A stretch of DNA of 64,000 nt from NCBI RefSeq assembly GCF_014653215.1, contig NZ_BNAI01000001.1, positions 186,001-250,000 of the forward strand, read 5' to 3'. A model generated the notes under the pieces. The model searched no databases and was not told the DNA's origin. It saw only the letters and a list, made by a program, of their open reading frames with translations. Positions 9,875 to 16,012 of the stretch are shown here, piece after piece; the first letter of the stretch is position 1, and each line of letters begins with the position of its first letter. Both the position numbers and the translations under genes were made by a program. This DNA comes from Pseudolysinimonas yzui. GTDB lineage: Bacteria > Actinomycetota > Actinomycetes > Actinomycetales > Microbacteriaceae.

Positions 9875-9902
9875 GCCGGTGGATCCGGGGTCAGCGACCG
9901 GC
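9875..9902. terminator. Weak hairpin between convergent ilvE and SipW-type gene
   Basis: GCCGGT at 9875-9880 pairs with ACCGGC at 9897-9902. The stem is only six base pairs and has no T-run. It is the only terminator candidate in this 16-bp convergent gap. Confidence 0.3.
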
Positions 9903-11231
9903 GGCGTAGTGCGCGGCGACGCGTGAGGCGCTGAGAGCCGTCGTGTAGACGGCGGCGTTGTCGATGCTCGAGACCAGGGTCGCGTCGAGCACCCCCGACA
10001 TCCCGGTCGTCGTGTCGCCGCCGACCCGCCAGAAGCCGTCTGAGCCGTACGGGTTGTAGTGGTAGGCGGTGGTCCGGGTGTTGGAGGCTTCCAGAACCCC
10101 GTCGACGTAGAGTCGCATCCCGGCCGACGAGAGGGTCGCGACCGCGTGATGCCATCCGCCGTCGTGGTAGGTCCCGGGCGCGTTCAGGGTGCGCACCGTG
10201 TTGTTCTGACGGATGCTGAAGCGTAGTCCTCCCCCCGTGGTCATCCAGATGCGCCGATCGGCGACGGCCGAGGTGCCGGTGGCGCTCTCCCCGAATCCGA
10301 TGAGTTGCCCACCGCCCGTCGACGTCGTGCGGAACCAGATCTCGATGCTGAAGGTGTTCGGCGGCGCGATGGCGGCCCCGGGCACCGTGATGCCGCTCGT
10401 GACGGCGGCGGCGAGGGCGAGCGACGGGCTGGTGCCGACGCAGTCGCCGACCTCCCGCGTGGCGCCCGCCAGGATCGTGCCCGTTCGGCCGTTGCCCGAC
10501 GCGTCGGTCGCGGTGGTGCCCGTTCCCTCGTTCACGGCGTAGAGCAGGGAGGGCGAATCGAGCGGCGTCTCGACGAGACAGCCGAAGGTCGGGGCGGCCG
10601 CGAGAGCGGTCGACGGGTTCGGACTCTGGCTGGCGTACGCGGCGTGGGCGGTGCCGCTCGATCCGATGACGGTGACGACGGTGACGGCGGCGATCACGGC
10701 GAGTGCGGACGGGATGGCGCGCGCGACCGCGGGGTCGGAATCGGCCCGATGCGCGTTGCGGCGGCCGAACGCGACGACCCCGAGTCCGAGGGTCGCGACG
10801 ACGGCACCGAGGATGAGCTCCCACCGGCCTTCCCGGGCCCAGAGGAAGGGCAGCCCGATCGCGGGAGCACGCAACACGGCGACGCCGTGCACGTCGTCGG
10901 GTGTCACCGGGGTGGAGTCGGTGGTCGCGTTGGCATCGCCGCGGGTGATCAGCAGGCCCTCGGCGGTCGGACCGACGAGGCGGTGCAGGCGCAACTGCCC
11001 GGGATGGTCGGGATCCTCGAACAGCAGCACACGACCCGGTGAGGCGGCGGGGTCGGCGACCGGCATCGCGACGACGATGTCGCCGGCGCGGACGGCGGGT
11101 GCCATCGAGTCGCTCATCACGGTGGTGGCTTTCCACCCCCAGAGTGTCGGGATGGCCGACCAGAACAGGCAACTCGCGACGGCGAACAGGATGATGCGCG
11201 CCAACGTCGTGATGACAAGCGTGACGTGCAC
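9891..11231 (-). CDS. SipW-type (S26B) signal peptidase fused to a LamG-like domain
   Basis: The first 160 of 446 residues form an ER/SipW-type signal peptidase. A membrane helix (about 5-28) is followed by the catalytic Ser42 in SDSMAP, His83 in LRLHRLVG (histidine where bacterial type I enzymes have lysine) and the TRGDAN motif with Asp99. A second helix spans about 138-155. A third hydrophobic stretch (176-190) follows, then GTAHAAYASQSPNPS, which resembles the processing site of SipW substrates. A LamG/concanavalin-like domain fills about 230-446 (FSIEIWFRTTS, HHAVATLSSAGMRLYVDG). The chain may therefore cleave its own C-terminal domain. The TasA/camelysin-like gene upstream in the same operon is its expected other substrate. 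Confidence 0.85.
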   Translation of the reverse strand: MHVTLVITTLARIILFAVASCLFWSAIPTLWGWKATTVMSDSMAPAVRAGDIVVAMPVADPAASPGRVLLFEDPDHPGQLRLHRLVGPTAEGLLITRGDANATTDSTPVTPDDVHGVAVLRAPAIGLPFLWAREGRWELILGAVVATLGLGVVAFGRRNAHRADSDPAVARAIPSALAVIAAVTVVTVIGSSGTAHAAYASQSPNPSTALAAAPTFGCLVETPLDSPSLLYAVNEGTGTTATDASGNGRTGTILAGATREVGDCVGTSPSLALAAAVTSGITVPGAAIAPPNTFSIEIWFRTTSTGGGQLIGFGESATGTSAVADRRIWMTTGGGLRFSIRQNNTVRTLNAPGTYHDGGWHHAVATLSSAGMRLYVDGVLEASNTRTTAYHYNPYGSDGFWRVGGDTTTGMSGVLDATLVSSIDNAAVYTTALSASRVAAHYAAGR

Positions 11232-11375
11232 TTCTGCACCTCCTCGGGTAGGCGTGCGAGACGAAGGGGGACGGGAGACTGAGCGGGATGCGGCGGGGAA
11301 GGCGATCGGGGAGCGGATCGACGCGAACGGAGTCCGTCCGGCACCCCCGAATCAGGTGCCGGACGGCCCGACCGA

Positions 11376-11984
11376 TCAGCTGTTCTGCGCCTCCCAGGTG
11401 AATCCGAGCGCAGCGGTGCCGCCCTGGGTGGTGTTCGGTGCCCCGGCATCGACCGTGTACACGAACTGGAACACCCGCGTCTCGGCGGCGGTGCCCGTAG
11501 GCGCCCAGGAGCCGAGGCCGGTGGCGTAGTTCGTGGCGGTCGTGCCGAAGTTTGCGAGCGAACCGGTGTAGACGGCCGCCCCGGAGACGAGCGGGGTGAA
11601 CCCGACGCAGCCGCCGGCGAAGCTGCCGCCGGTGCCTTGGGTGATCGTCAGCGTGATGTGGCTGCTGAGCGCGTTGGTCGTGGTGGCGCCGGTGCCGTAG
11701 AGGCGCACGGCGGATGCCAGCGAGCCGGTCGAGGTGACCGCGATGCAGCGGGTTCCGGTCGATCCGGGTGCCAGGTTGGTGGCGGTGAAGAGGGCCGTGG
11801 CCGAGTCGTCGTCGGACAGCGCGACGGTGCCGGTGGCCCAGTTGTTCGTCGGCGTCGACGTGGTGGCCGAGAACGCGGCGTAGGACGCGGTGCCGATCGT
11901 GGCGCCGCTCAGCAGGATCGCGACCGGCAGGGCGAGCCAGTTCGCGATGCGGCCGGCACGGCGTCGGCGCAGGGTGGTGGTCAT
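11376..11984 (-). CDS. Camelysin/TasA-like secreted protein with SipW-type signal
   Basis: A 202-residue exported protein with a basic N-terminus (RRRRAGR) and a hydrophobic stretch at about 15-33. Then comes the SipW-cognate processing region (IGTASYAAFSATTS), followed by WATGTVALSDDD, the typical start of a mature camelysin/TasA-like beta-sandwich. Proteins of this family form surface fibres or act as surface-bound factors in Bacillus; its role here is inferred. It is the first gene of the operon whose second gene is the SipW-type peptidase, about 145 bases downstream. Two MarR-like operator sites lie just before its start. Confidence 0.82.
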   Translation of the reverse strand: MTTTLRRRRAGRIANWLALPVAILLSGATIGTASYAAFSATTSTPTNNWATGTVALSDDDSATALFTATNLAPGSTGTRCIAVTSTGSLASAVRLYGTGATTTNALSSHITLTITQGTGGSFAGGCVGFTPLVSGAAVYTGSLANFGTTATNYATGLGSWAPTGTAAETRVFQFVYTVDAGAPNTTQGGTAALGFTWEAQNS

Positions 11985-12004: not shown

Positions 12005-12038
12005 TTCGATGATCGAAGTAGCAAGTTCGACGATCAAA
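12005..12038. promoter_or_regulatory. Two palindromic operator sites between MarR and TasA-like genes
   Basis: TTCGATGATCGAA (12005-12017) is a perfect 13-bp palindrome. TTCGACGATCAAA (12026-12038) is a near copy. Their centres are 21 bp apart, two helical turns, so both would face the same side of DNA. The AT-poor surroundings make them stand out. They lie upstream of the TasA-like gene and about 115 bp from the divergent MarR gene, its likely binder. Confidence 0.55.
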
Positions 12039-12150: not shown

Positions 12151-12633
12151 ATGTTTCGTGAAGTTGTTGAGGTCGACGAGTCGACCGAGACCGCGCTGAG
12201 CGATGTGCTGATCGCGTTCAGCCGGATGCGTCGTGAGAATGACCTGCTGCTCACTGCGATCGCACGAGACCACGGCCTTCACGCCTCCGACTTCCGTGCG
12301 GTGGCATTCGTGCAGATGACGCCGGACGTCACCCCTCGGAGCCTGGCCGACTACCTGGCTCTGTCGTTGAGTGCGACGACGGCGATGATCGATCGCCTGG
12401 TCGCCGCGGGGTACGTGCTGCGCACCCCGAATCCCGAGGACGGGCGCAGCGTCTATCTCGAGATCACCCCGGTTGGGGCCGATGCGGTCGAAGACGCTCG
12501 GAAGCTATACGTCGCGGCCTTCGAAGCTGCGGTGCCTGTCGAGCGGCGCGACGAGGTCGCTGCGACGTTCAAGCGCATCGCGGATGCCGTCGCGGATGTC
12601 GCCGTCGGGGACCACGCGTCAGCGCGCACCTGA
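12151..12633 (+). CDS. MarR family transcriptional regulator
   Basis: A 160-residue winged-helix regulator. The N-terminal dimerisation helix is followed by the HTH (LADYLALSLSATTAMIDRLVAAG, about residues 57-79, split here by description) and the wing RTPNPEDGRSVYLEITPVG. The ATG at 12151 is preferred over an upstream in-frame GTG because AAGGGGGA sits seven bases before it. It is divergent from the TasA/SipW operon with paired palindromes in the gap, which suggests control of that operon and of itself. The effector is unknown. Confidence 0.88.
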   Translation: MFREVVEVDESTETALSDVLIAFSRMRRENDLLLTAIARDHGLHASDFRAVAFVQMTPDVTPRSLADYLALSLSATTAMIDRLVAAGYVLRTPNPEDGRSVYLEITPVGADAVEDARKLYVAAFEAAVPVERRDEVAATFKRIADAVADVAVGDHASART

Positions 12634-15404: not shown

Positions 15405-15635
15405 ATGTCGATCAACATCTACGAGGCCAAGACCCAGCTCTCGAAGCTGATCGCTCGCGTCGAGGAGGGCGAAGAGATCACGATCTCGCGCAACGGTCGC
15501 CCCGCTGCGCGACTCGTGCCGATCGGCCGGCGCACCGCGCCACGGGTTCCGGGTGCCCTGAAGGGGCAGATCGTCATCCACGACGACTTCGATGAGCTGG
15601 ATGAGGAAACCCTCAGCGACTGGTACGGCGAGTGA
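15405..15635 (+). CDS. Phd/YefM family antitoxin
   Basis: A 76-residue antitoxin of the Phd/YefM fold: INIYEAKTQLSKLIARVEEG forms the N-terminal DNA-binding dimer unit and ITISRNGRPAARLVPI completes it. The acidic C-terminus ([17 protein letters not shown]) would wrap the toxin. The stop overlaps the toxin start. It is expected to neutralise the PIN toxin and repress its own promoter. Confidence 0.9.
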   Translation: MSINIYEAKTQLSKLIARVEEGEEITISRNGRPAARLVPIGRRTAPRVPGALKGQIVIHDDFDELDEETLSDWYGE

Positions 15636-16012
15636 GGATCCTCCTCGACACTCACGTACTGCTCTGGTGGCTCATGGAGGATCCGCACCTGCCCAGGGCC
15701 TTCCGAGCCGCGATCGCGGATGCCGACAACGATGTCTTCGTGTCAGCCGTCACTCACGCTGAGATTGCGATCAAACGCTCGCTCGGGAAGCTTGACGCGC
15801 CCTGGATTCCCGACGAACTGCTTGCCGAGAACGGCATCATCGGGATGTCATTCACGTCGTCGCACGCGAGGCGGATGCTCGATCTGCCCTTTCATCATCG
15901 CGACCCGTTCGACCGCATGTTGATCGCCCAGGCAGCTCTTGAGGACGTGGCATTCGCGACGGTCGATCCGCGCTGTCGCCAGTACGACATCCGGCTCTTC
16001 GAGCACGCCTAA
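15632..16012 (+). CDS. PIN-domain toxin, VapC type
   Basis: A 126-residue PIN-domain ribonuclease. Acidic active-site residues are seen in [10 protein letters not shown] (Asp6), THAEIAIK (Glu near 44), HRDPFDRML (Asp near 90-93) and FATVDPRC (Asp near 112). VapC toxins cut tRNA or rRNA; the target here is unknown. The GTG start overlaps the antitoxin stop. The pair is inserted between the FAH-MFS genes and gltX. Confidence 0.9.

Follow-up and report, generated by a model that had tools for sequence, protein, structure and literature searches.

The window analysed here, a stretch of 64,000 nucleotides of the Pseudolysinimonas yzui contig NZ_BNAI01000001.1, carries at positions 9891-11984 a pair of minus-strand genes separated by 144 base pairs (bp), the first encoding a TasA-like protein and the second a signal peptidase of the S26B type continued in the same chain by a LamG domain. 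The features of the two genes are given below.

11376..11984, minus strand: TasA/camelysin-like fibre subunit gene, 202 residues, ATG start (Pfam M73 and structure comparison)
11817..11876, minus strand: predicted start of the mature TasA-like protein (residues 37-56), corresponding to the donor-strand region of TasA
9891..11231, minus strand: fused signal peptidase-LamG gene, 446 residues, GTG start with AGGAGG just upstream (Pfam/NCBIfam, alignment)
10854..11195, minus strand: S26B catalytic part, residues 13-126, with Ser42, His83 and GDAN at 98-101 (NCBIfam, alignment, SEC11C profile match)
10746..10823, minus strand: second membrane helix, residues 137-162 (AlphaFold2 model)
10653..10733, minus strand: third hydrophobic segment, residues 167-193, read as a putative internal SipW-type signal (alignment, AlphaFold2 model)
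10638..10643, minus strand: predicted cleavage site between A197 and A198, followed by Tyr199
10581..10640, minus strand: TasA-like N-terminal segment of the cargo, residues 198-217, with anchors Y199 and L210
9915..10400, minus strand: LamG domain, residues 278-439 (Pfam, AlphaFold2 model, Foldseek)

The catalytic residues of the fused protein, which had been named in an earlier note made from this DNA alone, are in place: Ser42, His83 and the GDAN motif occur in the expected order and are invariant in all 33 aligned fusions, and a profile of the catalytic part matches SEC11C at an E-value of 1.6e-7. Residues 13-126 score 46.8 bits against NCBIfam TIGR02228 (archaeal-type signal peptidase I; 49.8 bits in the genome search), below the cut-off of 51.85, and the enzyme is called SipW-like rather than SipW because the Bacillus SipW equivalog NF046067 gives only 33 bits against a cut-off of 190. 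The AlphaFold2 model of the fused protein (mean predicted local distance difference test score (pLDDT) 83.5, predicted template modelling score 0.56) has helices at residues 2-31, 137-162 and 167-193. The catalytic part, rich in beta structure, lies between the first and the second of these helices, and the last corresponds to the third hydrophobic segment of the earlier note. Beyond it lies the small-residue site AHA/AYAS (residues 195-201; the stretch 193-207 reads GTAHAAYASQSPNPS). The LamG domain, also claimed in that note, is recognised by Pfam (PF13385, residues 278-439, 8.4e-22, 78.4 bits against a cut-off of 27.6) and has many ConA-like Foldseek matches. Neurotoxin binding domains were found amongst the Foldseek matches, and a toxin reading was rejected, as the ConA-like fold is common and implies no toxin.

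The net charge of the 18 residues preceding the third segment is positive in 102 of the 115 distinct fusions described below (mean +4.8; this positive-inside signal is missing in 13), and the 40 residues past the site have a mean charge of -1.0, which argues that the near side of the segment is inside and the far side outside. Together with the modelled helices, these signals suggest a chain that spans the membrane three times, with both the catalytic part and LamG extracellular; the cytoplasmic LamG that the earlier note had named as fatal to its proposal did not appear.

The upstream protein scores 22.2 bits against Pfam Peptidase_M73, narrowly below the cut-off of 22.5, and a profile built from 42 relatives matches TasA chains at E-values of 0.5-0.66 only. 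The best solved match of its structural model (mean pLDDT 83.5, residues 1-42 under 50) is the TasA fibre 8aur_A, with a Foldseek E-value of 7e-7 that is the sole one under 0.001; superposition places model residues 38-202 on chain residues 28-233 with a Z-score of 9.8 and a root mean square deviation of 3.7 over 151 aligned residues. Weaker fold matches include chaperone-usher pilins and other fibre subunits. The signal of this protein (IGTASYAAFSATTS) combines a hydrophobic stretch and a small-residue site in the same pattern as the fused protein, just as had been noted before; it is of the SipW type, with a predicted cut near A36 and A37 and a two-anchor segment running from F38 to W49. F38 of the model overlies the start of the TasA chain, i.e. 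the donor-strand region, a register that is only suggestive since residues 1-42 are those modelled with low confidence. In the model, the upstream gene product has a TasA-like fold, and by analogy it probably forms a fibre by strand donation.

The fusion is not confined to the window. At least 20 other genomes of the same family, among the matches listed, match the query nearly end to end. When 398 genomes of the family were scanned with a peptidase-only query (threshold 1e-18), 59 places were found in 45 genomes and 17 of 85 genera, 58 of them in open frames of at least 362 residues; 53 of the 59 were read as loci, giving 51 fused cases, one unfused (L169) and one without a called peptidase (L166). 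A phylum-wide scan of 396 genomes (1e-15) matched 25 places in 23 genomes, and amongst the 21 places inspected, 11 were fused and 10 unfused. Open frames and fused places of both scans were counted by eye. In named-species genomes, where a single-protein query confirmed no relative, an alignment query yielded 125 loci; the best 80 of these come from Frigoribacterium, Curtobacterium, Arthrobacter, Schumannella, Amnibacterium, Cryobacterium, Nakamurella, Microlunatus, Enemella and others, and 77 of them have a lengthened peptidase (counted by eye). All these sets were chosen by likeness to the fused enzymes, so that the share of unfused enzymes is not derivable from them. Three loci (L096, L131 and L141) have short or missing peptidase frames and look broken, by sequencing error or real decay.

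Pooling and removal of duplicates gave 122 long-tailed peptidases, of which seven belong to split operons (L055, L058, L059, L064, L066, L070 and L071), leaving 115 distinct fusions. The earlier note had called for a survey of S26B-LamG fusions and of their distance to TasA-like genes: of the 115, with LamG or other cargo, 110 are immediately preceded by a TasA-like gene in the same orientation, with a median gap of 79 bp. The exceptions are five, namely L146, which lies close to the end of its contig, L164, L205, where the TasA-like genes follow the fusion, L209 and L216. Given the end-to-end matches within the family and the number of distinct fusions, the joining is not a chance event. Up to three such places occur per genome (G035, G297), some with different cargo, and Frigoribacterium sp. 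PhB160 has an Ig-like cargo in L075 (by eye) and a LamG cargo in L084; paralogous fibres with different ends may therefore coexist.

Across the fusions, the site and the segment that follows it recur. Right behind the small pair, 114 of the 115 fusions have an aromatic residue, and the loss of segment or site amongst homologues, by which the earlier note's proposal would have fallen, was not seen. The following eight positions are free of F, W, Y, L, I and M in 100 fusions, and 111 have a second hydrophobic residue at +9 to +11, a number that per-segment shuffles reach at 37.2 on average and at most at 51; amongst 69 non-redundant segments, such a residue is found in 65 (shuffled mean 21.9, maximum 33). 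TasA-like partners could be registered in 112 of 130 cases, and 103 of these have the second anchor at +11. The whole three-part pattern was detected in 95 of the 115 cargo segments, compared with one of 82 signal-peptide controls, which are crude and have membrane proteins among them, and, as a background rate, 1101 other proteins of the same loci contain 1991 small-small-aromatic sites, 151 of them followed by the whole pattern. Sites were placed by a picker trained on 33 of the 115 fusions, which favours aromatics and is blind beyond +2, and those of L138, L167, L209 and L095 were set by hand; as positions beyond +2 were ignored, the second-anchor count is independent of the picker. The pattern stands before folds as unrelated as LamG, Ice_binding, RCC1, WD40/fn3 and ALK-type Gly-rich; as a sequence pattern, a TasA-like N-terminal strand precedes another, complete fold, in the manner of TapA. 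In two fusions, the internal segment is also matched by a whole-TasA profile (L143, 9e-5; L216, 2e-4).

LamG was recognised by an in-house hidden Markov model (HMM) in 65 of the 115 fusions, and the other 50 carry different cargo. The Ice_binding family (Pfam PF11999) is present in L156 (3e-35) and L158 (1.2e-26) and, judged by eye, in L159 and L163, and the peptidase-Ice_binding fusion is a possible ice-binding fibre end. Single cases from Pfam are RCC1 repeats (L207), a WD40/PQQ propeller with fn3 (L211) and an ALK/LTK Gly-rich cargo (L216). Outside the family, LamG occurs again as cargo in L199 and L200 (Pfam); other cargoes are immunoglobulin-like (Ig-like) by eye, and many of the 20 fused-type proteins scanned with Pfam have no cargo family over cut-off. 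In a tree of the catalytic part, built on 140 columns only, one branch (support 99/94) holds 92 of the 104 rows, namely all 89 fused together with three unfused. The cargo labels, of which 'Ig', 'Big', 'unk' and two of the four 'IceB' were assigned by eye, require 14 changes on this tree (minimum 8; 50.6 when shuffled), and for LamG at least two changes are forced by well-supported branches alone. These counts suggest that the cargo was swapped on more than one occasion, and as read from these sequences it is exchangeable while the site and the two-anchor segment persist.

Operons in which peptidase and cargo are separate genes provide a further clue. In L055, L058, L059, L066, L070 and L071, lamG overlaps the end of the preceding peptidase gene, and in L064 the called lamG begins 65 bp past it; L206, L212 and L213 have an unfused peptidase gene, and the gene that comes next overlaps it and encodes a TasA-type signal and Ig-like repeats. 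The split-operon LamG likewise carries its own N-terminal signal with a TasA-type start, and the fused tail is thus the counterpart of a protein that is secreted separately elsewhere. Peptidases of the LamG-split operons are 29-36% identical to the catalytic part of the window and were left out of the tree, where L206, L212 and L213 fall outside the fused branch; by their sequences, the split forms are parallels and not proven ancestors of the fused form. An intermediate-looking arrangement between fused and split, with a short fused cargo and a separate downstream LamG gene, occurs in L160 (2952-4964).

The N-termini were compared by BLOSUM62 scores over 16 residues, using 33 fused pairs and six split operons. 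The split-operon LamG N-terminus scores 40.5 with its own TasA, 16.0 with the TasA of fused systems and 13.4 with the LamG N-termini of fused systems, the LamG bodies of split and fused systems being homologous and about 40% identical; two crude controls gave -10.6 and -6.8. LamG N-termini are thus closer to the TasA of their own operon, in the fused systems (24.3) as in the split ones, than to the LamG N-termini of the other system. Shared ancestry would account less easily for this difference than for the own-versus-other difference amongst the fused systems, which it may explain.

The arrangement can be compared with known systems. In B. subtilis, SipW is reported to remove the signals of TasA and TapA (PMC10151520, PMC9674648); TasA subunits connect via an N-terminal donor strand (region 28-38), with contacts that include F29 and F39 (PMC9674648); and TapA, the start of which (AFHDI) resembles that of TasA (AFNDI), is considered, with its complete Ig fold, to occupy only the filament start (PMC10151520). 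The 10-11 residue spacing of the anchors in the fusions is close to that between F29 and F39 (PMC9674648). In Bacillus, tapA and sipW overlap (PMC10151520), and most of the split operons here show such an overlap between the peptidase gene and the gene for LamG or the Ig-like repeats. Both arrangements place an S26B-type peptidase beside a TasA fibre gene, and in both a second substrate, putative in the fusions, joins a TasA-like N-terminus to a fold that is complete. They differ in that the second substrate here is in one chain with the peptidase, is placed after it and is variable in fold, the LamG of the window being a different fold from TapA.

With SEC11 and archaeal-type S26B enzymes, the window enzyme shares the catalytic motifs and the SEC11C profile match, whereas it stays below the TIGR02228 cut-off and, to our knowledge, SEC11 has no comparable C-terminal tail. 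Chaperone-usher pili (FimH, PapG) are alike in working only, as an analogy, being donor-strand fibres that end in a binding domain, whereas the end protein here would arrive fused to a peptidase; neither an usher nor a chaperone gene was noticed next to the operon, where no dedicated search was made for one. The LamG part itself resembles other LamG/ConA-like jellyrolls, which it differs from in being joined to a peptidase. Amongst open-access articles, judged by title and start of abstract and with subscription papers and preprints outside the scope, no report of a signal peptidase-cargo fusion was found, nor any open-access paper with both SipW and LamG; the domain pair may already appear in protein databases without comment.

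By analogy with Bacillus, we favour, at somewhat better than an even chance, a SipW-type peptidase with a fused TapA-like second substrate that the peptidase releases and that starts or caps the fibre. The product of the operon would be a donor-strand fibre, the subunit of which is supplied by the first gene. The third segment of the fused protein would work as an internal SipW-type signal, and the peptidase would cut the fibre subunit as well as the cargo fused to itself after a small residue, in cis or in trans between two copies. The freed cargo would be a TasA-like strand followed by a complete fold of another kind; for this reason it could lend a strand and could not accept one, and hence would start or cap the fibre, as TapA does in Bacillus, with the binding domain (here LamG) displayed at the cargo-bearing end. 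What points to a TapA-like starter or tip is the combination of a TasA-like start, an unrelated fold and production together with the peptidase. Sequences and models directly support the architecture, the topology signals, conservation, cargo exchange, the split forms and the TasA-like fold of the partner; cleavage, the identity of the cutter, action in cis, strand donation, the position in the fibre and glycan binding by LamG are what we infer from them. Of the earlier note's idea that the enzyme cuts itself to release a LamG lectin, the parts that stood are the topology, the recurring segment and site, and the presence of LamG as a separate protein with a TasA-type signal in split operons, while the cut, its self-catalysis and the lectin role keep their conditional standing.

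Several observations weigh against this reading. In the model, residues 192-213 have pLDDT under 50 and are unplaced before LamG. The second anchor is missing in four of the 115 fusions. The count of 114 aromatics is partly circular, because the picker favours aromatics, and its hydrophobicity step was passed by all 122 long-tailed peptidases, including the seven cargo-less ones of split operons, six of which then gave no aromatic (a difference of two counts). An HMM of the TasA N-terminus finds the internal segment in only five of the 122 (E<0.01), and its mature part alone in one, so that in most rows the likeness to TasA is a pattern and not detectable homology; among 1094 other proteins, the same HMM finds three under 0.01 (L206, L212 and L213), all separate genes with TasA-type signals. 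In the N-terminal comparison, the fused cargo scores 24.3 with its own TasA and 20.4 with the TasA of other operons, a small margin, and the TasA N-termini of fused and split systems are themselves alike (26.0). The rows are related by descent, and counts and shuffles overstate their independence. Lastly, the genome of the window has a second, unfused S26B of 153 residues (G000:C1:519952-520413). The operon of this enzyme (L198 7255-10881, G000:C1:519254-522880), in which neighbours start with AAWLDEEW and ASWTDLEYV after a hydrophobic stretch, is perhaps another fibre or surface system.

The segment could also act as a recognition element only, the fused enzyme releasing a secreted or wall-bound cargo that has no place in a fibre. 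This would explain why segment and site travel with the peptidase. We consider it rather unlikely, since a second anchor is found 10-11 residues past the cut, where residues usually matter little to a signal peptidase, and since the distance between the two anchors is similar to that from F29 to F39 in the donor strand of TasA.

The third segment might instead be a plain membrane anchor, with LamG staying on the peptidase and keeping the enzyme near fibre subunits or cell-wall glycans. Its length and hydrophobicity suit such a role; yet an anchor would have no need of a small-residue site followed by an aromatic, or of a further hydrophobic residue kept at a set distance ahead of unrelated folds (111 of 115), and the homologous LamG of split operons has an N-terminal TasA-type signal of its own. 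To this explanation we attach little probability.

Release of the cargo by another enzyme, either an ordinary type I signal peptidase or a second S26B, overlaps with the TapA-like reading in everything except the cutter. The AXA-like residues at the site favour it, AHA/A being presumably suitable for an ordinary type I enzyme, and the unfused S26B of the same genome offers a candidate. That enzyme, however, sits in its own operon with neighbours of a different start, and the fused-set cargo N-terminus resembles the TasA-like protein of its own operon, which makes a foreign cutter improbable in our judgement. An artificial joining of two genes by sequencing error, for which no support was found and to which the broken-looking L096, L131 and L141 show the opposite defect, is already refuted by recurrence in 115 distinct fusions of many genera and in 51 of the 53 family places read, and has practically no chance of being correct. 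The chances expressed for the preferred reading and its rivals are not exclusive and sum to more than one.

Taken as a TapA-like second substrate, the fused tail suggests that many actinobacteria make a fibre-trimming enzyme in one chain with an exchangeable outside protein and that the enzyme releases its own capping partner. More tentatively, and at a little under an even chance, we propose a widespread actinobacterial system in which each self-cutting enzyme yields one tip or starter, coupling subunit maturation to fibre initiation in a fixed ratio, and in which the end domain is swapped (lectin-like, ice-binding, propeller, Ig) while strand and site are kept. If true, this would be a signal peptidase with its own C-terminus as substrate, and the way in which a binding end is added to the TasA-like fibres of actinobacteria would be explained. 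As the end domain is marked by the peptidase fusion, the start or end of TasA-type fibres becomes testable in many species, and function hints are provided for LamG, ice-binding, RCC1 and Ig-like surface proteins in this setting.

The following elements that may bear on expression surround the two genes.

11334..11366, minus strand: strong RNA hairpin right after the tasA-like stop (folding: -37.8 kcal/mol over the first 70 nucleotides of the gap, z-score -2.7)
12005-12017 and 12026-12038: two operator-like palindromes, TTCGATGATCGAA / TTCGACGATCAAA, in the stretch that separates the MarR gene from the tasA-like gene
12151..12633, plus strand: divergent MarR-family regulator gene (Pfam)

A search of the gap between the tasA-like and peptidase genes for a terminator-like site found none. 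As a guess, the hairpin at 11334-11366 may cause the downstream gene to be expressed less than that of the fibre subunit, and hairpins after the tasA-like stop perhaps set the ratio of subunit to peptidase-cargo; such a hairpin is not general: over 96 distinct gaps the z-score averages -0.5, and only 25 of them fall below -2. The palindrome pair at 12005-12038 is a likely operator. Of the 115 fused loci, 60 have a MarR-like gene within 2.5 kb, which in 57 loci is on the opposite strand. Elsewhere in the window, at 15405-16012, two small overlapping genes upstream of a gltX-like gene resemble, by eye, an antitoxin/PIN-toxin pair.

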